Shown piece after piece: positions 1,463 through 19,466 of a stretch of 32,439 nucleotides of DNA. The DNA comes from Bacteroidetes bacterium HGW-Bacteroidetes-21. Its GTDB lineage: Bacteria > Bacteroidota > Bacteroidia > Bacteroidales > GWA2-32-17. The notes below the pieces were generated by a model that was not told where the DNA came from, did not search any database, and worked only from the letters and a program-made list of their open reading frames with translations. The stretch lies in the NCBI GenBank assembly GCA_002840935.1, contig PHDH01000015.1, positions 1-32,439 on the forward strand, given 5' to 3'. Positions within the stretch are counted from its first letter, which is position 1; every line of letters begins with the position of its first letter. A program made the position numbers and the translations under genes.

Positions 1463-2434
1463 ATGCTGAGGATAGGCGTAGTAGGAGCCGGACATTTTGG
1501 ACGGTTTCACATACAATCAATTACACAGATACCCGGGTTCCGGTTGTCAGGCTTCTACGATATTGATCCCGAGCGGTCGGAAAAAATTGCAAGCGAGTTC
1601 AACGTGCATGCTTTTTCGTCGTACCAGGAATTGCTGGATAATTCGGACGTGGTTGATATTGTCGTTCCCACTGTTTCGCATTACGAATGCGCTGTTCAGG
1701 CGATAAAACAGCATAAACATGTTTTTCTTGAAAAGCCGATGACCGCTACGGTGAAAGAAGCAGAGGCCATACTTAAACTGGCAGGCGAAGCCCAGGTCAA
1801 AGCGCAAGTGGGGCATATCGAAAGGTTCAACCCCGCATTTTTGGCTGCCCGTCCTTATATTTCAAATCCCATGTTTATTGAAATTCACCGTCTGGCCGAA
1901 TTTACCATACGCAGTACCGATGTGTCGGTGATTTACAATTTAATGATACACGATATTGACATTGTACTGAGTGTTGTGAAATCCAACCTCAGACGTATAC
2001 ATGCCAGCGGGGTAAAAGTTGTGACAGATTCTACCGATATAGCCAATGCCCGCCTCGAATTTGATAATGGTTGTGTAGCCAATATTACCGCCAGCCGGAT
2101 TTCGACCAATAATATGCGTCGTATGCGTTTTTTCCAGAAAGACACTTATATTAATGTTGATTGTCTGAATAAAAAATCGGAAGTGCTGAAAATGAAGAAT
2201 AACGGTCAGATTGAACTAACCGGATTGATGTCGGGAAGCGGAGATATTGGCAATTACGAAGATTTTATCAGCGAACCATTGAGCATTAGTCCGAATAACT
2301 CAATAAAAGTCGAACTGGAATGTTTTCTGGAAGCCATTGAGCAAAATAAAGACGTGCCCGTTTCTTTTGAGGCAGGATATAACGCATTACTTGTTGCCAG
2401 TCGCATTAGCGATAAGATTGAGAGTGTGTTGTAG
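1463..2434 (+). CDS. Gfo/Idh/MocA family oxidoreductase
   Basis: N-terminal Rossmann GVVGAGHFGRFH; HVFLEKPMTATVKEA (conserved EKP); GHIERFNPAF. Confidence 0.92.
   Translation: MLRIGVVGAGHFGRFHIQSITQIPGFRLSGFYDIDPERSEKIASEFNVHAFSSYQELLDNSDVVDIVVPTVSHYECAVQAIKQHKHVFLEKPMTATVKEAEAILKLAGEAQVKAQVGHIERFNPAFLAARPYISNPMFIEIHRLAEFTIRSTDVSVIYNLMIHDIDIVLSVVKSNLRRIHASGVKVVTDSTDIANARLEFDNGCVANITASRISTNNMRRMRFFQKDTYINVDCLNKKSEVLKMKNNGQIELTGLMSGSGDIGNYEDFISEPLSISPNNSIKVELECFLEAIEQNKDVPVSFEAGYNALLVASRISDKIESVL
2332..2434 (+). repeat. 103-bp direct repeat, copy 1 (3' end of the oxidoreductase gene)
   Basis: About 97/103 identical by eye to 5044-5146. Confidence 0.95.
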
Positions 2435-2477
2435 GTGGGGGTTTTGGATGGTTAACTGTTGAGCGGCCTATTATGAT

Positions 2478-3255
2478 ATGATGAATAGAATATTGTTGTC
2501 ATTGTTAATGTTTTATACTCTGCCTTCTTTTGGACAGATTGATATTATTAATTTAAGTTTGACTGATTCCACTAAAAATATTTTATATAGTGGGGGGGGG
2601 GGCCACAAATTTGATTAAAATCATTGGAATAGAGAATAAAACTAATATAATGTTAATTTCAAATGTAAGAAGTTATAAAGTCGATAGAAATAGGTGTGAT
2701 TTATACCATCTTTATCCATATTTAGAGAAATCAGATACATTAAAAGTTCTAGTAGGTGATTGTGTCGCTTTTTCAAAACAATTTGATTGTCTCTCGTTTC
2801 CTAATTATAAAACAGTATTAGGTGAAACTAATGATACTGCGTTAACTAATACGGAGATTGTAAACAATCCCTTTTTGAATTTAGTGCTTATTGATTGTTT
2901 TTATAAAGTCGATTACCATGTTGTTAGATATGATATTAGTTTTTTATTGAAAAAAAGTAAAATTAAACTTCCCAAAAGAATAGGTGAATATAGATTAGTT
3001 ATTAAAAGACGAAAACAATTGTATGAATCAAATTTAATCCCAATAGATGAGCCAAAGTATCGTCTTCATATCAGTTTCGAAAAAGATTATAAAGTATTAA
3101 ACACAACTGTTTATGAGAATAAACTACCTAAAGAACATCTTGATATAATAAACTTAATGCAATCTGGGGATAAATTAGTTTTTGATAATATAATCATTCG
3201 GAAAAATGATGGAGCTGATGTAAATATTGGTCCATTAACAATTACAATTAAATAG
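2478..3255 (+). CDS. Secreted GldM C-terminal-domain-like protein, reading frame broken at a G11 tract
   Basis: ATG at 2478 gives signal peptide MMNRILLSLLMFYTLPSFGQ, then ...DSTKNILYSGGGGHKFD* stops right after G11 (2592-2602). Removing one G joins it to the 221-aa ORF at 2590 (...SGGGATNLIKIIGIENKTN...). NxLYxG...NxIKI and GDKLVFDNIIIRKNDG..VNIGPLTITIK resemble the GldM C-terminal domain. Confidence 0.55.
2592..2602 (+). repeat. G11 homopolymer tract inside a coding region
   Basis: Direct read: atagtGGGGGGGGGGGccaca. Confidence 0.95.
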
Positions 3256-3271
3256 TACAGTGGGTAATTCA

Positions 3272-3334
3272 GCATAGCATTCTGCAATAAAAATCTTTTG
3301 GCGGGTTGAAAAAGTTGGTGTAATTTGCACAATG
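3272..3334 (+). repeat. 63-bp direct repeat, copy 1
   Basis: gcatagcattctgcaataaaaatcttttggcgggttgaaaaagttggtgtaatttgcacaatg; 5 mismatches against 4232-4294. Confidence 0.93.
3296..3327 (+). promoter_or_regulatory. Candidate Bacteroidetes-type -33/-7 promoter for 3370..4212, lying within repeat copy 1
   Basis: TTTTG, 20 nt, TAATTTG (close to TTTG-N19-21-TAnnTTTG, with the -7 one base short), about 40 nt upstream of the ATG at 3370. Confidence 0.4.
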
Positions 3335-3369
3335 CCAAGTGTGAAAATGTCCCCAGCAAAATTAAAACT

Positions 3370-4212
3370 ATGAAAAGGCACTTTAGTTTATTGTTCATTT
3401 TATTGCCTGTCATTAGCATGGCTCAATTTGATTATATTGATCAGAAGGCATTATATGTTACTCATAAGATAAAAAGTATTATAAGTGTTTATCATGACGA
3501 AGACACAAATGAGAATCGAGAAATATGGAAAATTGATTCTACAGGTAGAATGATTTCATATCAACTACATACATTATGGGGAGAGACATATCTTGGTTCA
3601 ACTGAATGGAAATACAATGGGACCCTATTATCAACATGTACAGATATTGGGGATTACGGTAAAAAAAACCATAAAATTGATACAGCAAGAACAATATACT
3701 TATATAATGACTCTCAATTATTAGTAAAAACCAAGTTCACATGGCCAATAGACGAAGACACTTTAATAACTGAATATAAATATATTAATGGACTTATTAT
3801 TTGTGAAAGTATTTTTTATGGAAATTATCAAAATGGATATAAAACATATTCATATGAAGACATTGTCTCGACAAAATCAAAAACGGTTTCTATTACTGAA
3901 TTTTATAATAATAATGTCAGTTTTATTCCTTTTATTAAAACTATGAAGTATTATGATACATTAGGAATAATTCAAACAGAAATTGAATACAATTTTATTA
4001 AGGAATGTTCAATTCCTTCGATTATTAAAACATTTATATATGATAATGGAAAACTTATAAGAATAAAAGAACTCTATATTGTTGATGACTCAGATAAGCC
4101 ACATGAGTATAATGATGAAATATTTGAATATAATGAGAAAGGTCTAGTATCAAAAGTATTAACCATCAACAATGGGTCTTCGGAAAGTTATTGTACATAT
4201 GAATATGAATAA
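3370..4212 (+). CDS. Hypothetical secreted protein (signal peptide, beta-rich Tyr/Asn-rich repeats)
   Basis: MKRHFSLLFILLPVISMAQ signal peptide; the ORF track extends upstream to 3325 but the signal peptide favours 3370. Confidence 0.75.
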   Translation: MKRHFSLLFILLPVISMAQFDYIDQKALYVTHKIKSIISVYHDEDTNENREIWKIDSTGRMISYQLHTLWGETYLGSTEWKYNGTLLSTCTDIGDYGKKNHKIDTARTIYLYNDSQLLVKTKFTWPIDEDTLITEYKYINGLIICESIFYGNYQNGYKTYSYEDIVSTKSKTVSITEFYNNNVSFIPFIKTMKYYDTLGIIQTEIEYNFIKECSIPSIIKTFIYDNGKLIRIKELYIVDDSDKPHEYNDEIFEYNEKGLVSKVLTINNGSSESYCTYEYE

Positions 4213-4231
4213 GATACAAGTGTTGATGCGC

Positions 4232-4294
4232 GCATAGAATTCTGCAATAAAAATCTTTTAGCGGGTAGAAAACGTTGGTGTAGTTTGCACAATG
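4232..4294 (+). repeat. 63-bp direct repeat, copy 2
   Basis: gcatagaattctgcaataaaaatcttttagcgggtagaaaacgttggtgtagtttgcacaatg, exactly 960 bp from copy 1. Confidence 0.93.
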
Positions 4295-4362
4295 AGTTAA
4301 TCGAAGTATCTTAAAGTAATACCCAATTAATTTGCGCTTAGTTGCTTTTCCCAACCGTATTT

Positions 4363-4926
4363 CTAGTTTATTTCTTTTTTTATCTCAATTGCTAATCGGT
4401 TTAAAACTTTCCAATCATTTGTTTTTTGAAATTCAACAATATTTGGATAAACACCATTAAATTTATCATTACAAGTCATTATTGACTCATCAAAAGTCTT
4501 AAGTAATTCTTTTTCGGAATCATTAAATGCTTCATTAATTATTTTGTTGTCGATTCGATAAAAATTTTCCCATTGTTGAAATAGTTCCTGTAATTGATTT
4601 AAATCGCTTTCTGAATCTTGAAATTCAAGTTGTTTTTCTTTTGATGTCCACAATTCAAGATTCTCTATTATACTGTTACGAGACATTCTAATGAAATTCG
4701 AATCATATATTTCATCACTTATAGCTTTTATCCTATTTTCTTTTCGAATTTTTTTAATTCTGAATAAATAAAAAGGCACATAATAAACATTAAGAATCAC
4801 AAGCATTATCAGACGATTTGTATTCTTGTCATATTTATTCAAAAACCAAATGCAATAAATCCAAAGAATCATTGCAATTGAATAGATAATAGGGAATACT
4901 ATCTTAAAGATTATTGAATCATGCAT
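4363..4926 (-). CDS. Hypothetical membrane protein (two N-terminal TM helices and a cytoplasmic helical tail)
   Basis: MHDSIIFKIVFPIIYSIAMILWIYCIWFL...LIMLVILNVYYVPFYLF. Real ATG is probably at 4926; the track's start at 4968 is a TTG inside a hairpin arm. Confidence 0.65.
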   Translation of the reverse strand: MHDSIIFKIVFPIIYSIAMILWIYCIWFLNKYDKNTNRLIMLVILNVYYVPFYLFRIKKIRKENRIKAISDEIYDSNFIRMSRNSIIENLELWTSKEKQLEFQDSESDLNQLQELFQQWENFYRIDNKIINEAFNDSEKELLKTFDESIMTCNDKFNGVYPNIVEFQKTNDWKVLNRLAIEIKKEIN

Positions 4927-4951
4927 AATTTGTTCTTTCGTTTTTATATGG

Positions 4952-5049
4952 ATGGTAACGGTTCGCAAACAGGCGAATACTGCAAATCTGTAACTTTATA
5001 ATCAATGCTTGCCTCTTTCATGTAGTTACGATTGTTTGCTGTTAGCCAT
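4952..5049. repeat. Large imperfect inverted repeat, attC-like
   Basis: ATGGTAACggttcGCAAACA (4952-4971) pairs with TGTTTGCtGTTAgCCAT (5033-5049). Nested AATCtGTAACT (4985-4995) pairs with AGTTACGATT (5024-5033) with one bulged T. Confidence 0.65.
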
Positions 5050-5146
5050 TGAGCAAAATAAAGAGGTGCCCGTTTCTTTTGAGGCAGGATATAACGCATT
5101 ACTTGTTGCCAGTCGCATTAGCGATAATATAGAGAGTGTACTTTAG
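5044..5146 (+). repeat. 103-bp direct repeat, copy 2: displaced 3'-end remnant of an oxidoreductase gene
   Basis: In frame it encodes AIEQNKEVPVSFEAGYNALLVASRISDNIESVL* against AIEQNKDVPVSFEAGYNALLVASRISDKIESVL* in the intact gene. Confidence 0.93.
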
Positions 5147-6849
5147 TCGATTTCCTTCATTTTTTTTAGAAATACCTTTAAAAACTGGGAACATTCTTCG
5201 AAAGATTTAAAGGTGTGTTCTTTCTTGAGCAGACTGGGTATGAGGTTAACTTTCTCCATCATGTACAGAGGTTGAGGCTGAATGATGGTCATGAGAACAG
5301 TTTTATTTTTATTTTTCAGATTAAGAATAGCTGTTTCAAGCGCGTAGAGACCTGATTGATCTATGAACGGCACTTTTCTCATTCGGATGATAACTACTTC
5401 TACATTGTCGGGTATGCCATTCATTATTTGCTGAAAACGGCTCACTGAACCGAAAAAAAGCGGACCGTCAAGACGTTGTATGTAGATTTTATTGCGAATA
5501 TCTTCAGAAATCCCCATTTCATCGTCCCAAGTTATTTCTTTATCATTTCCGCTGATAGGATCTGCATTAATTCCGCTGTCTACCAAATCACTGGCTCTTT
5601 TCATAAATAGAACAGACGCAAGTACCATTCCCAATCCAACTGCTTGAAGCAAATCTACAAACACAGTTAAAACAAGAACCAGAACAAGTATAATGGCATC
5701 TGCCCGGGGAATAAACAGGATGTCTTTAATGCCTTTTTTGTCGATAATACCAATTCCAACGGTTAATAAAATACCTGCCAGAACAGAAAAGGGAATGTAG
5801 GCAACCAGACTACCTAATCCTAGAAGAATTCCTACAAGGAACGCCCCATGAATAATTCCACTGATTTTTCCTCGACCGCCTGCTTTTACATTTACCAATG
5901 TTCTCATAGTCGCTCCTGCACCGGGTATGCCACCGAAAAAGCCGGATATTGTATTGCCAATGCCTTGCCCAATAAGTTCTTTGTTGCTGTTGTGTTTGGT
6001 TTGAGTTATATTGTCAGCAACTACAGAGGTAAGGAGTGTATCAATGGTTCCAAGTCCAGCCAGCGTAAGGGCGGGAATAATCATAGCGAAAATCATTTTC
6101 GGATCCATGCTGATGATATCGTTGAAGTGGAATGAAGGTAATCCAACCGGAATATTTCCAATTGCTTTTACATCCCATTTTAGGAAAAAGGCTAAAAGCG
6201 TAGAAATTAATAAGGCCACTAAAGTAGATGGTACTGCTTTGGTGATTTTTGGAAAAAAATATATTATTGCGATGGTAAGGCTTCCGAGGATAAGCTCGAG
6301 CGGATTAATGTTTTGAAATAAAAGAGGCAGACTTTGAATAATATCTAAAGTTTTTTTTGGCGATTCAACACCAAGCAATGGGAAAATCTGTAAGAGAATA
6401 ATGATTACACCAATACCACTCATAAATCCGGATAAGACAGGGTAAGGAATATATCGTATATATTGACCGATTTTGATCAGTCCAAAGATGATTTGAAAAA
6501 TTCCGGATAGAATGAAAATTCCGAGCAAAAAGCCGAGGGTAGCTGAAGTTAATTCGCCATTGATGGCATACATGGCAACTAAACCCGACGTGATAACTGT
6601 CATTGGGCCCGTTGGACCGCTGATTTGAGAGGGCGTGCCCCCAAAAAGTGATGCGAAAATACCCAAAAAAATGGCGCCGTATAATCCAGCTTCTGCGCCC
6701 ATTCCTGATTGAACTCCAAAAGCTAGCGCCAATGGCAATGCGACTATCCCAGCAGTAATGCCACCAAAGATGTCTCCTTTAATATTTTTCATTTTAGATG
6801 CAGAATGATTTAAAAAAAGATTGGCAAAATTATATTTAATTGCTTTCAT
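5143..6849 (-). CDS. SulP family inorganic anion transporter with C-terminal STAS domain
   Basis: GDIFGGITAGIVALPLALAFGVQSGMGAEAGLYGA, FGGTPSQISGPTGPMTV, IDTLLTSVVADNITQTKHNSNKELIGQGIGNTISGFFGGIPGAGATMRT and a STAS domain (VPFIDQSGLYALE). Confidence 0.96.
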   Translation of the reverse strand: MKAIKYNFANLFLNHSASKMKNIKGDIFGGITAGIVALPLALAFGVQSGMGAEAGLYGAIFLGIFASLFGGTPSQISGPTGPMTVITSGLVAMYAINGELTSATLGFLLGIFILSGIFQIIFGLIKIGQYIRYIPYPVLSGFMSGIGVIIILLQIFPLLGVESPKKTLDIIQSLPLLFQNINPLELILGSLTIAIIYFFPKITKAVPSTLVALLISTLLAFFLKWDVKAIGNIPVGLPSFHFNDIISMDPKMIFAMIIPALTLAGLGTIDTLLTSVVADNITQTKHNSNKELIGQGIGNTISGFFGGIPGAGATMRTLVNVKAGGRGKISGIIHGAFLVGILLGLGSLVAYIPFSVLAGILLTVGIGIIDKKGIKDILFIPRADAIILVLVLVLTVFVDLLQAVGLGMVLASVLFMKRASDLVDSGINADPISGNDKEITWDDEMGISEDIRNKIYIQRLDGPLFFGSVSRFQQIMNGIPDNVEVVIIRMRKVPFIDQSGLYALETAILNLKNKNKTVLMTIIQPQPLYMMEKVNLIPSLLKKEHTFKSFEECSQFLKVFLKKMKEID

Positions 6850-6900: not shown

Positions 6901-9900
6901 ATGAAGGTAATTTTCTTTTCTATCCTATTTTTCTGGCTTGCGGAATTTTCGTTTGCCCAGCCTTACGCTAACGATTGGGTGGATTACAATAAAACTTATT
7001 TTAAGATCCCCCTTACTGGCGAAGGTATTTACAGGGTTTCCTATGCTACTTTAAATAATTCTAATCTTCAGTTTCCAATCAATAGTATTTCGCCCAAGAA
7101 TATTCAACTTTACATTAAAGGGCGTGAATGGCCCATTTTTATTAGCGGTGAAGAGGATGGTATTTTTCATAACTACGATTATATTGAGTTTTATGCCCCG
7201 GCTTCAGATGGTTGGCTGGATTCCTTAATGTATTCGCCCAATTTGTCCATTACCAATCCCTATTATAGTCTGGTGAATGATACTTTGTTTGCCTATTTAA
7301 CATGGAATCAATCCTTAAATAATTTGAGAGCGGGATACGAAACCGATGTAAATTACTCTGCTTATACTGCTTGGCAATCGCTTTGGTGCAAAAGTAATGT
7401 GATATGGCATAATCCTCAATACTTTTATTCAGGGGCTGACGATCCAGCGTATCAGTCGGGTGAGGGTTGGTTCGACGAATACTTTCAGCTAGGGAGTCAG
7501 GTAACCAGATCGCTCAGTACCCCCGGGTATGTTGCTGGTGTTTATCCGGTGACTGCCAGCTATTCTGTGGCAGGAGCTTCTAACGCTACTACGTATATAG
7601 GCTCAAATCACCATTTAAGATTGTCTGTGGGTTCGACTCCTTATGCTGACACGCTATTTCTTGGTTATAAGGCGGTTAAAGGAAGTTTCGATGTGTCTGG
7701 GGCCTTGACTGCGCAAACTCAGTTTAAAGCAGAAAGTGTAAATGACCTGAATGTGCCTGCCGATAGAATGACTATTGGTTATCTTACGCTGGAATATCCC
7801 CGGAATTATAACCTATTGCAGGCAGAATATCTGAAGTTTAAACTGCCGTCAATGGGCGGTGCTAAAACACTCATTAGCTTTGCCCAGATTCCATCGTCGG
7901 GTATTGTTTTGTGGGATATTTCCCGATTCAAAAAAATTCTGTGTACGGGATCAGGGACAAATGCTCAGGCTTTGTTGCCCGATAATGGGAGCGAATTGAC
8001 CTGCTATATGTCTTCGGTTGCTCAAATAAAAAATGCGGTTCTCGCAGGGAAATTTGAGCCGGTAAATTATAAAAACGTGGCAGGTAATAGTACATACATT
8101 ATCATTACACACAAAAGTTTATGGGCTTCTGCTCAGCAATATAAAAGTTACCGCGATAGCAAAGGCTATCCAACGGCGCTGATAGATATCGATCAGTTGT
8201 ATTCTCAGTTTTCATACGGAATTAATAAGCACCCATTGGCTATCCGTAATTTTATTGAATATGCGCTGGATTCCTTTAATGTAAAACCCGAATATGTTTT
8301 TCTCATCGGTAAATCCATTCACTCCGGAAAATGGTCGTATAACGAATGTTTTAGAAAGTCAAATGCGAACTATGACATGTGTTTAGTCCCTTCCTGGGGC
8401 TCACCTTCTTCCGATCATATGCTGGTAGCGGGTATTGATAGCGTGGATTTCTATATGCCATTGTCTATTGGTCGTCTGGCAGCGGTTACAAATGCCGATG
8501 TGACAAATTACCTCGCCAAAGTAACCGCTTTCGAAAACCAACCCCCTTCACTTTGGATGAAAAATGTATTGCATTTTGGCGGTGGGCAAAGTTCTTACGA
8601 ACAACAACTTTTTGCGGGATTTCTCAGCAATTATGCTTCAGTGATAAGTGATACCCTGTTTGGGGCCATGGTGCATACTTTTCTTAAGACATCCAGTGTG
8701 CCGGTTCAAATTACATTGTCCGATTCTATCCGCAACCTTATCAACGGGGGATGCTCTCTCATGAATTTTTTTGGGCATGGATCATCCTCAGGCTTTGATC
8801 AGAATATTCAGGAACCATCCTATTATACCAATACCGGTAAATATCCTCTCCTGATTGCCAACTCCTGTCTTACCGGAGATATTCATCTGCCTCCCCCATT
8901 ACGATTAGGCGAGACTTGGGTGTTAACACCTTCCAAAGGTTCTATCGCATTTCTTGCTTCGGTGGATATTGGTTATGCCGTCTCGTTGAATTTTTTTACC
9001 AGTGAATTTGTGAGACAGTTTTCTTATAAACACTATGGTTATAGCATTGGTCGGCAGGTTAGTGAGACGATTAATTATATTGTCACTGGAACAACTTATG
9101 ACCAGACCTATGTGAATTCAGCCATGGATTTCACTTTACACGGAGATCCGGCTATTATCCTAAACTCTTTTCGCAAGCCCGATCTGATGGTCAACAATAC
9201 CTCTTTGTTTTATACGCCGACCGAATTGACAACTATCGTTGATTCTTTCGATGTGCATGTCATTGTATATAATCTGGGCAGGACAGTAGCCGATACTTTT
9301 TTAATTGAACTGACTCGTACTTTGCCCAGTGGTCAATCCGAAATATTTTACAAATCCATGTCGGGTTGTATTTTGAAAGACACCGTTACTTATAGATTGC
9401 CAGTAGATGTCGTCAATGGACCTGGTGTTAACCGTTTCTGTGTACGTGTTGATTCTGAAAACTGGATTGACGAAGAGAATGAAACCAATAACAGTGTTTG
9501 CGTCGATAAAGTGATTGTTTCGGGTGATCTTGTGCCGGTATATCCATATGAATATGCGATTTTTCCCTCCAATACCGTAACGCTGAAAGCTTCCTCCGGT
9601 TATCCGTTTTTAAGTCCGCAGCAGTGTGTATTTCAGATAGATACCACAGATAATTTTTACACTCCTTTAAGTCAGGGAATTTTGACCTATTCGGGTGGGG
9701 TGGCCAGTTGGCAGCCTCCTTTTACATTGACAGATAGCACCGTGTATTACTGGAGAGTGAGCCTGATTCCGTCAGCCGGACAGAGTTACAACTGGAAAGA
9801 AAGTTCATTTATTTATATTCCCGGCAAAACAGGGTGGTCGCAGGCACATTTTTTCCAGTTTAAAAAGGATGATTTTAGCTTTATCAATTATAACCGCAAT

Positions 9901-11856
9901 CAAAGATCGTTTGATTTTGATACATCGCCTACATTGATTACCTGTCATAACATCGGTTCCCCATCTTCCAGCCAGTTTGTTGATATAAAATATGCCATCG
10001 AAGGATTGAATGATTATTCTTCCTGTGGTCCCGGTAACGCAATTCTGGTGGTGGTTATCGACCCAGAGACGCTTATTCCATGGGAATCGAACAAATCCGA
10101 TTACGGACAGACAAATTATCCACTTTGCCCAAGCCGAACGAGATACGATAGGTATTATCAGTTTTATGTTGATCCCGGTGTTTTATCAAGTATGAATGAT
10201 TTCCTTCAGAACGAAGTTCCTGATGGTTACTACTTGTTGATTTACTCTTTCCGAAACGGAATGTTTAGTTCTGTTTGGGATGATGTGCCGGGTCTTTATG
10301 AGACATTCGAATCTCTGGGCGCAACTTCTGTAAGAGCGATACCCGATAATTATCCCTATATTTTCTTCTGTAAAAAGGGAGATATTTCAACGGCTGTAGA
10401 GACTATTGGTAGTTCATCTACGGCTACAATTGATTTTGAGCATCAGATAAATTTGAATGTTGATTATGGCTATATTACTTCAACCATTGTCGGACCTTCT
10501 TCCCGCTGGGGATCGCTACACTGGAGATATACTCATGACGCCGGGTTACGCGATATTGCAAATTTGAACGTTACGGCAATAGCTCCCAATGGCAATAGAA
10601 TGAATGTATTTACAAATCTGGATGCCGATTCACTCGATATTTATGATCTCGAAACTCATGTTAATGCGCAGGATTATCCATTTCTGGAACTTAAACTCTA
10701 TGCAAAAGACGATACCCTGACAACACCAGTACAGTTAAAAAGGTGGCAAGTTACTTACGACGGAATTCCCGAAACAGCCATTAATCCCCCCAGTGGATTT
10801 GTCTTTGAAGCCGATACTTTAGACGAAGGAGAAGACATGTTATTTGGTGTGGCTACCGAAAATATCAGCGAATTTGATATGGATAGCCTTCTTGTGAAAT
10901 ACTGGTTAACCGATAATGATAATAATCTGGCTCATATTGGGGTCCGACGTCTCAGGCCTCATCCTGCCGGTGATGTGTTAATGGATACTATTCGTTTAAA
11001 TACCACAGGATATCAAGGACTCAATAATATATGGTATGAAGTAAATACCGAAAATTCAACTACGGGATATTTCGATCAACTGGAACAATACCATTTTAAT
11101 AATGTAGTGCAGAAATCGTTTTTTGTCAAGTCGGACATAACCAACCCAATATTGGATGTTACTTTCGATGGTGTTCATATAATGAACGGGGATATCGTGT
11201 CGGCCAAACCTCAGATTCTTATCGCACTGAAAGATGAGAATAAATTTTTAGCCCTCAACGATACGTCCATTTTTAATGTATACATTAAAGATATGCAGAC
11301 GGGTTTGGAAAACAGAGTGTATTTTAGTCAGACCGGAGAAATGCAATTTATTCCTGCAGTTTTGCCTAAGAATAGTTGTAAGATAAAATACAATCCGGTA
11401 TTTGTAACCGATGGCATCTACGAACTCCGTGTTCAGGCGCGTGATGTATCGAGTAACGAAAGCGGCGATTTCGATTATCTCATCAGATTCGAAGTAATCA
11501 ATAAATCTACGGTGACCCATTTGTTTAATTACCCCAATCCCTTTTCAACTTCCACACGCTTTGTCTTTACGCTTACTGGGTGGGAGTTGCCTGATGATTT
11601 GAGGATACAGATTATGACAGTAACCGGAAAGTTGGTACGCGAAATTAAATTAGAGGAATTGGGCGCGATACATATTGGAACAAATATTACCGAATTTGCT
11701 TGGGATGGCACCGATGAATATGGTGATAAGCTTGCCAACGGAGTGTATTTTTACCGGGTTTTTACCAAGATTAACGGAAGTTCTATCGAACATCGTGAGA
11801 CAGATGCCGACAACTATTTCAAAAAAGATTTCGGGAAGTTGTACATTATGCGGTAG
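6901..11856 (+). CDS. Large C25 (gingipain/PorU-like) cysteine peptidase with CARDB-like and C-terminal FlgD/T9SS-like domain
   Basis: Signal peptide MKVIFFSILFFWLAEFSFAQ at 6901; candidate catalytic His (MNFFGHGSSSG) and Cys (LIANSCLTGDI); CARDB-like segment (VNNTSLFYTPTELTTIVDSFDVHVIVYNLG); C-terminus FNYPNPFSTSTRFVFTL...GVYFYRVFTKING. Confidence 0.85.
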   Translation: MKVIFFSILFFWLAEFSFAQPYANDWVDYNKTYFKIPLTGEGIYRVSYATLNNSNLQFPINSISPKNIQLYIKGREWPIFISGEEDGIFHNYDYIEFYAPASDGWLDSLMYSPNLSITNPYYSLVNDTLFAYLTWNQSLNNLRAGYETDVNYSAYTAWQSLWCKSNVIWHNPQYFYSGADDPAYQSGEGWFDEYFQLGSQVTRSLSTPGYVAGVYPVTASYSVAGASNATTYIGSNHHLRLSVGSTPYADTLFLGYKAVKGSFDVSGALTAQTQFKAESVNDLNVPADRMTIGYLTLEYPRNYNLLQAEYLKFKLPSMGGAKTLISFAQIPSSGIVLWDISRFKKILCTGSGTNAQALLPDNGSELTCYMSSVAQIKNAVLAGKFEPVNYKNVAGNSTYIIITHKSLWASAQQYKSYRDSKGYPTALIDIDQLYSQFSYGINKHPLAIRNFIEYALDSFNVKPEYVFLIGKSIHSGKWSYNECFRKSNANYDMCLVPSWGSPSSDHMLVAGIDSVDFYMPLSIGRLAAVTNADVTNYLAKVTAFENQPPSLWMKNVLHFGGGQSSYEQQLFAGFLSNYASVISDTLFGAMVHTFLKTSSVPVQITLSDSIRNLINGGCSLMNFFGHGSSSGFDQNIQEPSYYTNTGKYPLLIANSCLTGDIHLPPPLRLGETWVLTPSKGSIAFLASVDIGYAVSLNFFTSEFVRQFSYKHYGYSIGRQVSETINYIVTGTTYDQTYVNSAMDFTLHGDPAIILNSFRKPDLMVNNTSLFYTPTELTTIVDSFDVHVIVYNLGRTVADTFLIELTRTLPSGQSEIFYKSMSGCILKDTVTYRLPVDVVNGPGVNRFCVRVDSENWIDEENETNNSVCVDKVIVSGDLVPVYPYEYAIFPSNTVTLKASSGYPFLSPQQCVFQIDTTDNFYTPLSQGILTYSGGVASWQPPFTLTDSTVYYWRVSLIPSAGQSYNWKESSFIYIPGKTGWSQAHFFQFKKDDFSFINYNRNQRSFDFDTSPTLITCHNIGSPSSSQFVDIKYAIEGLNDYSSCGPGNAILVVVIDPETLIPWESNKSDYGQTNYPLCPSRTRYDRYYQFYVDPGVLSSMNDFLQNEVPDGYYLLIYSFRNGMFSSVWDDVPGLYETFESLGATSVRAIPDNYPYIFFCKKGDISTAVETIGSSSTATIDFEHQINLNVDYGYITSTIVGPSSRWGSLHWRYTHDAGLRDIANLNVTAIAPNGNRMNVFTNLDADSLDIYDLETHVNAQDYPFLELKLYAKDDTLTTPVQLKRWQVTYDGIPETAINPPSGFVFEADTLDEGEDMLFGVATENISEFDMDSLLVKYWLTDNDNNLAHIGVRRLRPHPAGDVLMDTIRLNTTGYQGLNNIWYEVNTENSTTGYFDQLEQYHFNNVVQKSFFVKSDITNPILDVTFDGVHIMNGDIVSAKPQILIALKDENKFLALNDTSIFNVYIKDMQTGLENRVYFSQTGEMQFIPAVLPKNSCKIKYNPVFVTDGIYELRVQARDVSSNESGDFDYLIRFEVINKSTVTHLFNYPNPFSTSTRFVFTLTGWELPDDLRIQIMTVTGKLVREIKLEELGAIHIGTNITEFAWDGTDEYGDKLANGVYFYRVFTKINGSSIEHRETDADNYFKKDFGKLYIMR

Positions 11857-14796: not shown

Positions 14797-15513
14797 TTAA
14801 AATTTAATGCCAATACCAATTCTTAAATAATACTTTTTTTGTAATTCTTCAAAGTCAACTGTTGCTTGTGTCTTTTGAGAGTTTGGAAGTAAAGGGTTGT
14901 CGACGAAACGAGAACTATATTTCAAGTTTATTAAACTAAAGGGAATATTCATGTCTAAATATATTCTTGAATTGACGAAATAAGTAATCCTTGGAGTTAT
15001 AAGCATATCCGCTCCAAAGACAGTAGAAGTTGTTTTATATAAATTATCAATCTGGGGAACAAATTTCTCGCTAAAATAATATGGGTTTATTCCAAAGCCA
15101 AGCCCTGGTACTAAACGATGATTTTTGTTAAAGTTTAATTGATATTCATACCTCAATGAGATGGATGATGTTCTTTTATCAACATTGTACAACGACTGAA
15201 CAAACCCATTAGTATCATATAATTCCTGATTAATTATTGTTTCTTTGTCCCAATTAAGATCAGTTAATTCGATCTCTTGTAAGTGATTGTTTTTCGAATT
15301 CCATTGGAAGGCAACTGTAGGGTTTAACACTTTAAATATTGAATATTTATACGTGTATTGCGTCTGGTCTGCATTTAATCTATCTAATTTGACATACTCA
15401 TAAGTAGTCATATTGTAAAATTTTAAAGCATATTTATAGTCAAAATTTGACTCTTGTGACCAGGCATATGCTGTCATCATGCAGAAAATGACAATTGTTA
15501 TGATGTTTTTCAT
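14797..15513 (-). CDS. Hypothetical secreted / outer-membrane beta-barrel-like protein
   Basis: Signal peptide MKNIITIVIFCMMTAYAWSQ; alternating hydrophobic strands ending in YYLRIGIGIKF. Confidence 0.6.
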   Translation of the reverse strand: MKNIITIVIFCMMTAYAWSQESNFDYKYALKFYNMTTYEYVKLDRLNADQTQYTYKYSIFKVLNPTVAFQWNSKNNHLQEIELTDLNWDKETIINQELYDTNGFVQSLYNVDKRTSSISLRYEYQLNFNKNHRLVPGLGFGINPYYFSEKFVPQIDNLYKTTSTVFGADMLITPRITYFVNSRIYLDMNIPFSLINLKYSSRFVDNPLLPNSQKTQATVDFEELQKKYYLRIGIGIKF

Positions 15514-15779
15514 AGAAATTTATTTTGATTTAATTTAATTTTTATTTGCGAGACATTTTATGCTGTTTGAATGTTTCATTATCGGTTGTTTGTATTGTAG
15601 CAATAAACAACAATTTTAAACTTTTATTATATTTCGCACGAAAATATTTAAATATAGCCAAGTAAATATAGCTAAAGACCAGACTGTTATAGATGTTGGT
15701 GGGGGATGGGAGGGGGCTTAAAAGCTCGCTACTAGAATAAAATCGGTGTCTAATCTACATTAATTTCAAAAATCAATAA

Positions 15780-16406
15780 TTAAGAATAATAATCTTCAAA
15801 TGTTTTACAATCCATTAGTTTTGGCTGCTGTAAATTATGATATTTATCGGTAGGGATTTTACTAACTGATTTTACTAACATATCAGTTAATGAAGTTGAC
15901 ATTTGGCCTAAATAAACCAACGAGAAAGTCAGATATTCAAGTGGATTATTATCAATTTTAATATCAGTTAGAATAGTATAGTTTTTAGGAATACTATAGT
16001 ATTCTTGTTTTTCTCTGCCGTTTAAATTATTATTAGCTTTATTTACAATTAAAGATAAAATTGATAAGCTATCTCTAATTTTGCCAATAAAATCAAATTT
16101 ATCAACTTGTAATTGTAATTTTTTAGTATTAGTTATTTTTGGGTTTTTAAGAATCTCGATTGAACTTTTCATTTCAATAAAATCAATACATTCTCTATCA
16201 ATAATTATTTTAAGTGCATCACATGATTTTATTGTATCTAATTGGTATTCACGTACTATTAATTCTTTTGTTCTGTCAAAATCAATTACTTCTACTTTTG
16301 ATTTTTTATAACAATTTTTATCAAGTTTCCCAACTTCCAAAATAACAAAGTATTTTTTATCTATCCCAAACTGGAATAACTTTGTTAATATCTGACTTAT
16401 TGCCAT
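15780..16406 (-). CDS. Hypothetical protein with a PD-(D/E)XK nuclease-like motif
   Basis: IKSCDALKIIIDRECIDFIEMKSS fits a D...(E)xK pattern; start overlaps the end of the upstream ATPase gene by 10 bp. Confidence 0.5.
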   Translation of the reverse strand: MAISQILTKLFQFGIDKKYFVILEVGKLDKNCYKKSKVEVIDFDRTKELIVREYQLDTIKSCDALKIIIDRECIDFIEMKSSIEILKNPKITNTKKLQLQVDKFDFIGKIRDSLSILSLIVNKANNNLNGREKQEYYSIPKNYTILTDIKIDNNPLEYLTFSLVYLGQMSTSLTDMLVKSVSKIPTDKYHNLQQPKLMDCKTFEDYYS

Positions 16407-18229
16407 ACAATTTCTTTTAATGGTTCAGCAAGTTTTGAGAAAATAATATTTAAATTATTACTGACATCTGTTATTGTTGATTGCGTCTCTCCGTCCTCGA
16501 TTTCAGCATAATAATAGCTCGTTTTATTTTTTAATTGAGATAATTCGCTATAATACTTTAATGCTTGAATAATATAGGGGCTATGAGAGCTGATTATAAC
16601 TGAAATATCATTTCTGACTAAATCAATAATCATTTTAGCATATTCAATTTGCCATTGAGGATGAAGATGATTTTCTGGCTCGTCAATTATTAATAAACTT
16701 TTGTCATTTAACATATTACCTTGTAGTAATAGCTGAATTATGCCAAATGATTTTATTCCAGATGCAGTGTTCGCAGGTTTTATTTGAATATTTTTATGTT
16801 TATCAATTTTTTGCGAAAAAATAAAATCTCGATTGTTTTTGTCAAATGTAAATCCACCTTTGATTATAGTAGAAATATTTTTTATACATTCAATGAAATT
16901 TAAATTATTCTCAAATAGTGTATTTGAAAAATATTTTGCATTCTCAATTTTAGAAATTAAATCTTTGATGTGTAAAGAAACCTTAGGTCTAGTTCTTTGA
17001 AAAGAATTTATTTCGCTTCTATCACTTTCAAACAAAGTATCCGAGGATTGAATTAAATCATACATTTGAAGCAACAACGGAGTTTCTATATATACAACAT
17101 CTTTAAACATAAGTTCATCAAATAGGTTTAATGAGCTAATTTGGTTTTTGTCAAATTCTATTTCCAATATTTGATTTGTGCCTGCATTGTAATTTATATA
17201 TGACTTTCTTGAGGAACCTTTAGGTGTTATTTCAGATTGAAATTCAGAAAATAATGCTCTTGTTAATGCTCGCTTTATTTGGTCGTTCTTATTTTCATTT
17301 GAAAGTAAATCCTTTTTTATTTCTAATAGGATATTTGTACAATCTTGTTGTATACTTGTAGGATATTTTAAAAGCAAATTCTGTTTGTAATCAAAAAATT
17401 TATTTAATTGTTCTAACTCATATTCAGGAAATATTGACGCTTGGTTGGTTTCAAATAATTTTTTTATTTGATTTTGAAATATTCTAGGATTAAACTCATC
17501 TCTACTAAACTCATCTTTTCCAAATTCAGGAACTCTTCTTAATCGAAAATAAAGTTTTTCAATTTTGGAGAAAACAATTTGTTCTTTACTTTCATTTAAG
17601 TCTTGTTCATATCTACTAATTGCTTTAACAATTGAAAATATTAGCTTGCCAACTGTGCTTTTTCCGGTGTCGTTTATTCCAGCAATAACAGTAAGACCAT
17701 TCAATTTAATCCTTGCAGATTTAATCTTGCCTATATTTCTAATTTCAAAAATTTCATCCAAATTTTCACCTATGTGTTTAGTGATTTTTAAAGGATTAGT
17801 TTTATAATATACAGGATTGCTATTGAATTGAAAATCATTAATGCTAAAATGTTCTATTTTTGAAGCTTTCTCAAATATTATTGCATATCTTTCATTTAAA
17901 ACATTGTCCTTTATAATTCCATTTACTCTTTGAGTTATCCAATCTCCAAACAAATCTTGATGATATTTAATTGCTTTTTTAAATTCAATTCTATTATATA
18001 AATCTTTAACACTTAGTATTTCTTTAATTTCTGCAATAAAATACTTACCCCTATCATTTCCACCAGCAGCAATTAAAATTTTATCAAATTGTTTTCCTTT
18101 ATTCAAATTAAATTTCCAAGCCAAAGAAATTCCAAACACTTTTACTTTTTGAATTGGAGTGATTGTTTCAGCTACACAAATCCCAGAAAACTTGGGTAAA
18201 TCCTTTTCTATTAAATCTTTAATATTCAT
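16397..18229 (-). CDS. AAA family (SMC/OLD/AAA_15-21-like) ATPase with N-terminal extension
   Basis: Walker A AGINDTGKST, signature-like NTASGIKSFGIIQLLLQG, Walker B KSLLIIDEPENHLHPQWQ, switch VIISSHSPYIIQAL; about 165-aa extra N-terminal domain. Confidence 0.9.
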   Translation of the reverse strand: MNIKDLIEKDLPKFSGICVAETITPIQKVKVFGISLAWKFNLNKGKQFDKILIAAGGNDRGKYFIAEIKEILSVKDLYNRIEFKKAIKYHQDLFGDWITQRVNGIIKDNVLNERYAIIFEKASKIEHFSINDFQFNSNPVYYKTNPLKITKHIGENLDEIFEIRNIGKIKSARIKLNGLTVIAGINDTGKSTVGKLIFSIVKAISRYEQDLNESKEQIVFSKIEKLYFRLRRVPEFGKDEFSRDEFNPRIFQNQIKKLFETNQASIFPEYELEQLNKFFDYKQNLLLKYPTSIQQDCTNILLEIKKDLLSNENKNDQIKRALTRALFSEFQSEITPKGSSRKSYINYNAGTNQILEIEFDKNQISSLNLFDELMFKDVVYIETPLLLQMYDLIQSSDTLFESDRSEINSFQRTRPKVSLHIKDLISKIENAKYFSNTLFENNLNFIECIKNISTIIKGGFTFDKNNRDFIFSQKIDKHKNIQIKPANTASGIKSFGIIQLLLQGNMLNDKSLLIIDEPENHLHPQWQIEYAKMIIDLVRNDISVIISSHSPYIIQALKYYSELSQLKNKTSYYYAEIEDGETQSTITDVSNNLNIIFSKLAEPLKEIVWQ

Positions 18230-18410
18230 CTCATTAATTATTTAATTCTAATGCAATACTAACAATTTTTAGTTGAATTTCAAAAAGAGTTCAAAATTGG
18301 CCGTGTACTTATGTGAGAATAAGATAGATAGTATTCAAGTGTAAGTTATATTGCCAGTATTCTTGATTAGGATTTGGCTCAACTATCAACTATTAGAATA
18401 TATGTTGGGG

Positions 18411-18728
18411 TTAAACTTTATACTCAGGAAAATACAACATTATATTTACATCATTTAGATATACATCACAAGCAATAGGAGATACTTTTGCCTCTTCTTG
18501 TTTAATTATTATTTTGGGATTTCGCAAATCAACCAGTTGATCCTTTAATAACTTTTCAAGTTTTTCTTTTGCGTATTTTGCAGCAGACGTCCCATGTGGA
18601 GGTGTGAAAGATCCCCAAATTCGTAAAATATCGCCTTCTAATATAGTGCCATTTGGATTTTTCCAAGACCACATTGGTGAAACTTTGATAGTGTCAAAGT
18701 TTATTATTTCTGTAACTTTAAATTTCAT
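18411..18728 (-). CDS. Small SNase (thermonuclease)-like fold protein, probably catalytically inactive
   Basis: VTEIINFDTIKV...GDILRIWGSFTPPHGTSAAKYAKEKLEKLLKDQLVDL...CDVYLNDVNI follows the SNase layout but lacks the Glu43/Arg87 equivalents. Confidence 0.5.
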   Translation of the reverse strand: MKFKVTEIINFDTIKVSPMWSWKNPNGTILEGDILRIWGSFTPPHGTSAAKYAKEKLEKLLKDQLVDLRNPKIIIKQEEAKVSPIACDVYLNDVNIMLYFPEYKV

Positions 18729-18732
18729 AATC

Positions 18733-19269
18733 TTAAGTATTAGGCGTTTCAGTAATTGCAGGATTTAAAACATCTTGTTTCGTATCGAAGTTTAATTTCC
18801 GCTTAGTCTCTATTATAATGCAAAATAACTGATATAAAACAAATAGCCCATATGTAAAAAATACTCCACTTAATATTAAACAAGAAATTCTCACAAATGG
18901 AAAGTTAATAGATTTCACATATTCCTTTATATAAATATAGCAGATTACGAGTATTAATGCTAATATTAAAGGAATAAATAATCTTAATATTTGTCTTTTG
19001 GGGTTTAATAATTTCAATTGTTTTTTAGCACGTGACTTATTCTTAGTTAGAGATTTAAGGCTATCTTTTATTGTTTTTTCGAAATCTTCTGAATCATTTT
19101 GAACATTCATCTTTGTTATTTTTTCAATCTGTTTAATTTCTTCCTCATTTCTTGCTTTAAACTTTTCAACTCCATCTATGAAAACATTTAGTAGTAGAGT
19201 TATAGCAGGTGCAATAAAACTTAGAATTGAAATTAACAGTTTTGAATAAATCGAAATAATTTCTTTCAT
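18733..19269 (-). CDS. Hypothetical membrane protein
   Basis: Three hydrophobic segments (ISILSFIAPAITLLLNVFI, LFIPLILALILVICYIYI, CLILSGVFFTYGLFVLYQLFCIII); 4 bp upstream of the SNase-like gene on the same strand. Confidence 0.65.
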   Translation of the reverse strand: MKEIISIYSKLLISILSFIAPAITLLLNVFIDGVEKFKARNEEEIKQIEKITKMNVQNDSEDFEKTIKDSLKSLTKNKSRAKKQLKLLNPKRQILRLFIPLILALILVICYIYIKEYVKSINFPFVRISCLILSGVFFTYGLFVLYQLFCIIIETKRKLNFDTKQDVLNPAITETPNT

Positions 19270-19466
19270 CTGATTACAATTTTTGATAGTAGTTAATTAA
19301 ACTAGAACTCACTTGTCCACAAAATAATGCGTTGTTATTTTGCATATTAAAGTTGATGCTTGTCATTGGTTGCCTGTTAATTTATAAATACAAATTTAAA
19401 CTATTATTTTCTAATGTGCAGATATTTCTTTTGTTAATAGGAAGAAATTCTAATCTCTGAAAAACC

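Follow-up and report, generated by a model that had tools for sequence, protein, structure and literature searches.

How can the end of a gene come to be duplicated around a block of foreign DNA, with the gene itself left whole and no integrase in between? This question is raised by the Gfo/Idh/MocA oxidoreductase gene (hereafter ox) of Bacteroidetes bacterium HGW-Bacteroidetes-21, which lies in a 32,439-nucleotide stretch of DNA (the window; GenBank contig PHDH01000015.1, our contig C16) from a draft Bacteroidales genome of 3.9 Mb in 326 contigs, 88% complete. Two copies of the ox 3′ end flank an AT-rich block, and the block between them (positions 2435-5043) was the main object of our analysis. 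A first-pass annotation, made from the sequence alone, had described this arrangement as the classic signature of integration into a gene 3′ end with restoration of the reading frame. Our results suggest instead that integron-type cassettes, now in relic form, make up the block and may have entered through homology with the gene end that is now present twice.

The two copies of the ox 3′ end (copy 1, 2332-2434; copy 2, 5044-5146) are 103-bp direct repeats that match at 97 positions. As the annotation had reported, they surround an AT-rich block of 2.6 kb; its GC content is 28.1% over 2609 bp, compared to 42.9% upstream and 39.0% downstream. A repeat finder paired a slightly longer segment, 2318-2434 with 5030-5146 (117 nt, 91%). 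The duplication is far above chance and is the longest repeat of the window. Self-BLAST of the whole window at a length of at least 50 nt returned this pair and a 63-nt direct repeat within the block (3272-3334 and 4232-4294), and no others. A third copy of the ox tail was not found elsewhere in the assembly, no tRNA or Rfam family was found in positions 2435-5043, and a search for a tRNA or other RNA as the integration target gave none.

The six differences between copy 1 and copy 2 are 2353 C/G, 2416 G/T, 2419 T/A, 2428 G/A, 2429 T/C and 2431 G/T, at codon positions 3, 3, 3, 3, 1 and 3, respectively. All are third-position or synonymous changes: one exchanges D for E, one K for N, and the rest leave I, V and L unaltered. 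In support of the annotation, the differences are of coding type. Both copies terminate in TAG, and the TAG of copy 2 (5144-5146) does overlap, as described, with the stop codon of the convergent sulP gene on the minus strand (5143-5145). This overlap, on which the polarity of the copies rests, suggests that the resident ox 3′ end is more likely to be copy 2, with copy 1 as its replacement. That the block itself is foreign is supported by its 28% GC and by its patchy cargo. The ox homologues searched are 42-56% identical, the nearest only ~50-56%; among the 106 homologous ox loci, none has sulP nearby and none has a repeated 3′ end of comparable length.

Two properties of the locus had been missed in the first-pass annotation, namely the clustering of the differences and the attC-like repeats inside the block. 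Only one difference falls in the first 84 bp of the repeat, which include an identical run of 62 bp, and five fall in the next 16 bp (2416-2431). The clustering was significant by a hypergeometric test of the tail (P 0.0007) and by a scan test (P 0.0075), both of which were post hoc.

Degraded attC-type sites and related cassette arrays

In integron cassettes, the R″ box of the attC site is complementary to the cassette's own start, the crossover falls at G^TT, and the folded site carries extrahelical bases. Three attC-type sites were recognised in the block by BLAST and by alignment with array sites on other contigs: attC_A1 and attC_A2, whose cores are the two copies of the 63-nt repeat, and attC_B, on the opposite strand. 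When the block was searched against the genome, its repeat elements recurred on contigs C251, C148, C71, C186 and C97; for attC_A1, BLAST returned matches on four contigs besides its own. With a covariance model built for attC_A (model R1), seven sites were detected in the genome, each a training sequence of the model and two of them in the window, and two further sites in another genus of the same family. The outer end of attC_B coincides exactly with the start of copy 2, and at its inner end, CCG^TTACCATCC, the cassette that holds ORF3 starts.

The related arrays elsewhere in the genome are well preserved. On contig C251 (locus L009), six consecutive cassettes tile the contig, and each of the six begins with GTT-N6 and closes in the exact 9-nt reverse complement of that start. 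The 9-mers are, in order, GTTACCAAC, GTTAGGGTG, GTTACCTGC, GTTACCAAC, GTTAGGTGG and GTTAGGGTG, and the spacers between the cassettes carry the repeat found in the block. Chain links numbered 14, compared to a mean of 0.92 and a maximum of 8 in dinucleotide shuffles. Two L009 attC-type sites fold as bulged hairpins with extrahelical bases (z -2.6 and -3.1), as does one site of L010, on contig C148 (z -4.6), and folds of this kind were also observed in L220, L212 and L208. In addition, an ORF3 homologue from another family (43%) lies within an intact cassette, GTTACCAACC...GGTTGGTAAC, and what immediately precedes this cassette is the 3′ part of a recombinase gene (L173/L206).

Because the block contains degraded attC-type sites, has kin in these arrays and encodes a protein whose homologue occupies an intact cassette, it is best read as a relic cassette cluster, and as judged from sequence it very probably derives from integron-type cassettes. 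The arrays elsewhere fit the definition of a cassette and the block, with its decayed sites, does not. The overall picture resembles integron arrays and clusters of attC sites without an integrase: tandem single-gene G^TT cassettes with bulged-hairpin attC sites (in L009, L010 and relatives), patchy cargo mostly of unassigned function, and a block with no adjacent integrase. In contrast to such clusters, the sites in the window are decayed and of mixed orientation, and the nearest candidate integrase, encoded on contig C136, is without the IntI-specific insert.

A separate observation concerns L010, in which a 166-bp element is present in four copies (5253-5418, 6928-7093, 8250-8415 and 10683-10848), the clearest of them ending ...GGCGTTATAAACGAG^TTACCATTC. 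These elements resemble the putative attI sites that follow the recombinase genes of relatives (ATAAACnAG^TT) and look like attI/promoter units repeated in one array. In the window, the attI-like consensus did not occur above chance.

A candidate entry route and its alternatives

Insertion by an integron alone gives no 100-bp gene duplication, and the ends of the block offer a clue to another route. The outer end of attC_B reads CAATGGCTAAC; as the start of a cassette must complement its own R″, the expected cassette start is therefore GTTAGCCAT. When both strands of the window were examined, their 1169 GTT sites contained one non-self match of at least 8/9, GTTAACCATCC, at position 2456 on the minus strand. 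This site lies 22 bp past the stop codon of copy 1 and is oriented as attC_B is. If the block were closed into a circle through one ox tail, TTAACCATCC, the spacer, the antisense ox tail and attC_B would together form an ORF-less cassette of ~208 bp.

We suggest that the block may have entered as such a DNA circle of ~2.7 kb, carrying a copy of the ~103-bp ox 3′ end beside attC. A single reciprocal crossover between the ox tail of the circle and the resident gene, most likely of the RecA type and within the 62-bp identical stretch, would have sufficed. The chromosomal ox would thereby have taken the tail of the circle (copy 1) and stayed whole, and the resident tail (copy 2) would have been left beside sulP. 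The two ends of the insert would be the halves of one cassette, split by the crossover in the ox tail. The 62-bp stretch would be the natural place of the crossover; copy 1 would then derive its tail, and copy 2 its head, from the circle. One crossover of a circle is expected to leave an insert between direct repeats whose core is identical and whose edges have diverged. A crossover in homology would account for the duplication and the restored reading frame, for the absence of an integrase, for the position of attC_B and for the clustering of the differences. On this evidence we give a circle that crossed over by a homologous, not an integrase-catalysed, route slightly less than an even chance.

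Several points weigh against this interpretation. None of the three attC-type sites in the block folds better than its shuffles (z-scores in Table 1), and neither a chain link nor an intact pair of cassette start and end remains in the block. The attC_A sites, with ORF1 and ORF2, are oriented opposite to attC_B and ORF3, unlike a simple array, which calls for an inversion within the block or for a second event near 4294-4363. The 8/9 match to a cassette start is a single post hoc observation at one locus, and later gene conversion could also yield the clustered differences. Finally, the genome is an incomplete, fragmented draft and only distant ox relatives serve for comparison.

Site-specific integration, in which an attP site carried a replacement gene 3′ end, the integrase was later lost and the cassettes were cargo, is the best of the alternatives, and we consider it unlikely. 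Its geometry is that of e14 in icd of Escherichia coli, where the prophage supplies the icd 3′ end, leaves a 163-bp duplicate and swaps in a conservative Asp/Glu change (PMC6379469). As at e14/icd, the locus has a direct repeat of a gene 3′ end, a replacement end that restores the reading frame with conservative change, and the old end beyond the insert; the identical 62-bp core with diverged edges also fits, and other phage-type integrase genes are present in the genome. Unlike e14, however, the block contains no phage genes, its repeat is 103 bp rather than 163 bp, and its apparent cargo is integron-type cassettes. The first-pass annotation had itself noted that no integrase was visible, and we found neither an integrase nor a remnant of one in the 2.6 kb (2435-5043; Pfam, NCBIfam, PHROGs and PADLOC scans of the cargo). 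Site-specific integration also gives no reason for attC_B to abut copy 2 or for a start motif to lie beside copy 1, and no tail duplication of comparable length was found at ox in the 106 distant homologous loci. The annotated view that an incoming element supplied a new gene end is supported; the integrase of the classic scheme is absent and the block has the character of a cassette relic.

A local duplication of the gene end by slippage or break repair, with cassettes inserted between the copies and partial homogenisation, appears quite improbable. It makes a donor allele unnecessary, and gene conversion could have left the identical middle, but six changes that are all third-position or synonymous are unexpected in a drifting, non-coding copy 2 (~2% by a simple binomial). 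It would also require that the tail on the sulP side was retained and that the cassettes inserted precisely where this tail begins.

Similarly improbable is homology-facilitated illegitimate recombination in which a related strain, with the island downstream of its own ox gene, donated linear DNA; the left join would be homologous and the right join would use microhomology. Such recombination, with displacement of gene 3′ ends, has been described for type VI secretion system and Rhs loci (PMC5361080). Like the effector arrays and Rhs loci, the insert is anchored in a gene, has a leftover 3′ end downstream and lacks an integrase, which this mechanism does not need; unlike them, it has new and old ends that are nearly identical and a gene product that is essentially unchanged. 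This mechanism would give allelic differences of coding type and a repeat of arbitrary length, and the right junction shows short microhomology (CTG..AGCC). However, the spread of the differences (1 in 84 bp, 5 in 16) is not allele-like, one linear event should not leave the recipient with a net duplication of its own sequence, and the start match is not predicted. Because of the uneven divergence and the cassette-start match, a circle would fit better.

An assembly chimera, in which the assembler used the 62-bp stretch to link an uninterrupted ox-sulP locus with a strain variant or with a cassette circle that was free in the cell, is very improbable: 62 bp is enough to mislead short-k assemblers and the draft has 326 contigs, but a circle or tandem with one ox tail between attC_B and the post-stop sequence would still be needed, and a linear array cannot give this contig. 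We also considered a direct exchange between the gene and attC_B at the R″ end of the latter (G^TTAGCC versus GGAAGCC), which was rejected as the bases left of the repeat misfit.

Cargo and other features of the window

The coordinates of the features are collected in Table 1. Order-wide counts refer to 247 genomes, this one included, and homologues of the cargo were counted in the 246 others.

Table 1. Features of the ox-sulP locus and of the block between the two ox 3′ ends.
Feature	Positions	Strand	Evidence
Copy 1 of ox 3′ end (element-borne in the preferred model)	2332-2434	+	97/103 identical to copy 2
Copy 2 of ox 3′ end (candidate resident tail, now off its gene)	5044-5146	+	TAG 5144-5146 overlaps sulP stop
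62-bp identical core, putative crossover place	2354-2415 = 5066-5127	+	0 differences in 62 bp, 5 in following 16
Putative cassette start G^TTAACCATCC and spacer to copy 1 stop	2435-2456	-	Only non-self 8/9 match
attC_A1, degraded attC-type repeat	3260-3350 (core 3272-3334)	+	92.9 bits with model R1 (in its training set); fold z +0.4
attC_A2, degraded attC-type repeat, right half gone after 4294	4220-4310 (core 4232-4294)	+	77.8 bits with model R1 (in its training set); fold z +0.9
attC_B, attC-type site	4960-5046 (repeat element 4941-5044)	-	Aligns with attC-type repeats of L009, L010, L013; fold z -0.7
ORF1, secreted-type start MNRILLSLLMFYTLPSFGQ at 2481	2481-3255, open frame 2590-3255	+	Out of frame after 11-G tract 2592-2602
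ORF2, secreted-type, function unassigned	3370-4212	+	A homologue (37%) in 1 of the 246 other genomes
ORF3, probable membrane protein, function unassigned	4363-4926	-	Five patchy homologues in 246 other genomes; one within intact cassette
ox, Gfo/Idh/MocA oxidoreductase, 323 aa, intact	1463-2434	+	PF01408, E 1.2e-32
sulP, sulfate permease of SulP type that includes a STAS domain; convergent, resident neighbour	5143-6849	-	PF00916, E 2.7e-83; PF01740

Scans of the cargo with Pfam, NCBIfam, PHROGs and PADLOC gave sub-threshold matches only; for ORF1 these were confined to PHROGs, with no Pfam, NCBIfam or PADLOC match. ORF2 had no match in viral contigs and phages, and neither ORF1 nor an attC_A site had a match in plasmids. 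The run of 11 G in ORF1 might reflect phase variation, a frameshift acquired during decay, or an error of sequencing. At the junction 4294-4363, the plus-strand attC_A2 loses its right half and the minus-strand ORF3 cassette ends, which suggests an inversion within the block. The recombinase-gene fragment that directly precedes the ORF3-homologue cassette (L206, 3119-3293) is a 57-codon 3′ fragment of a XerA-like recombinase gene, and is thus another gene 3′ end joined to a cassette.

Upstream of ox, a divergent pcm-like gene lies at 717-1385, and this ox/pcm pairing was observed at 87 ox loci out of 107, a count that includes the locus described here. A second AT-rich stretch of the window (15500-19400, 26% GC) encodes a 610-aa ATPase-like protein and a 208-aa partner, and is located between a region of type IX secretion system type and folK/infB. 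This stretch was considered as a second cassette island and rejected, with no attC-type match and no flanking repeat.

XerA-like recombinases beside cassette arrays

No IntI protein above the TIGR02249 cut-off was found in the genome. The candidate recombinase on contig C136, whose contig ends 309 bp past the gene, is a XerA-like protein of 383 aa that scores 214.8 bits to NF040815, just under the cut-off of 220. It aligned to Vibrio IntI4 in two pieces, with IntI residues 182-240 skipped, whereas XerA and XerC aligned unbroken; the protein thus lacks the insert that defines IntI (PMC9668308). Like XerA-type tyrosine recombinases (NF040815; PDB 5hxy and 4a8e), the C136 protein and its homologues match over the whole catalytic part and lack the IntI insert. 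Unlike these, the C136 protein has an N-terminal extension of ~100 residues, and several of its homologues in the order adjoin cassette arrays.

Homologues at E 1e-70 or better are present in 59 of the 247 genomes. Ten homologue loci had enough downstream sequence, and at six of them a cassette start with start/end complementarity of 8-10 nt follows 74-137 bp after the gene, compared to 9-17% per locus in shuffles. Several of the recombinase loci contain further cassettes at spacings of 117-123 bp, and bulged hairpins are the predicted fold of spacers in L220 and L212. The six loci (L218, L220, L212, L213, L219 and L214) come from several Bacteroidales families and may represent an overlooked branch of integrons. 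We regard the relation between XerA-like recombinase and array as an association, as seen from gene positions. Integron surveys have reported very few complete integrons in Bacteroidetes (PMC9024848), and this scarcity fits a search model that needs the IntI domain.

At a further locus (L211, in the single 2.66-Mb contig of genome G232), segments of ~380-650 bp that are 90-96% alike are interspersed past the recombinase, together with a recurring 306-bp unit, GTTATAAC...GTTATAAC. These may be cassettes without an ORF that serve as promoters or in regulation.

The ox locus bears on two open questions about integrons, namely how their cassettes arise and by what path they come to lie in a chromosome apart from an integrase. 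The ox locus might be a snapshot of cassette formation, in which an ORF-less cassette that had captured an antisense ox tail re-entered the chromosome via that homology, and the arrays of this lineage might be served by a XerA-like recombinase that lacks the IntI-specific domain, is widespread in Bacteroidales and has been overlooked by IntI-based surveys; we offer this combined account tentatively, as on balance unlikely. If it is true, a cassette that bears a fragment of a host gene and enters via that fragment, with the gene undamaged, would provide a concrete route for cassettes, namely homologous capture at a gene end with the reading frame restored. Surveys based on the IntI domain may also miss a whole branch of integrons, since arrays in several Bacteroidales families adjoin a recombinase without that domain; the literature considered for this point was open-access. 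This side result on recombinases and arrays may matter more than the route through the ox tail.

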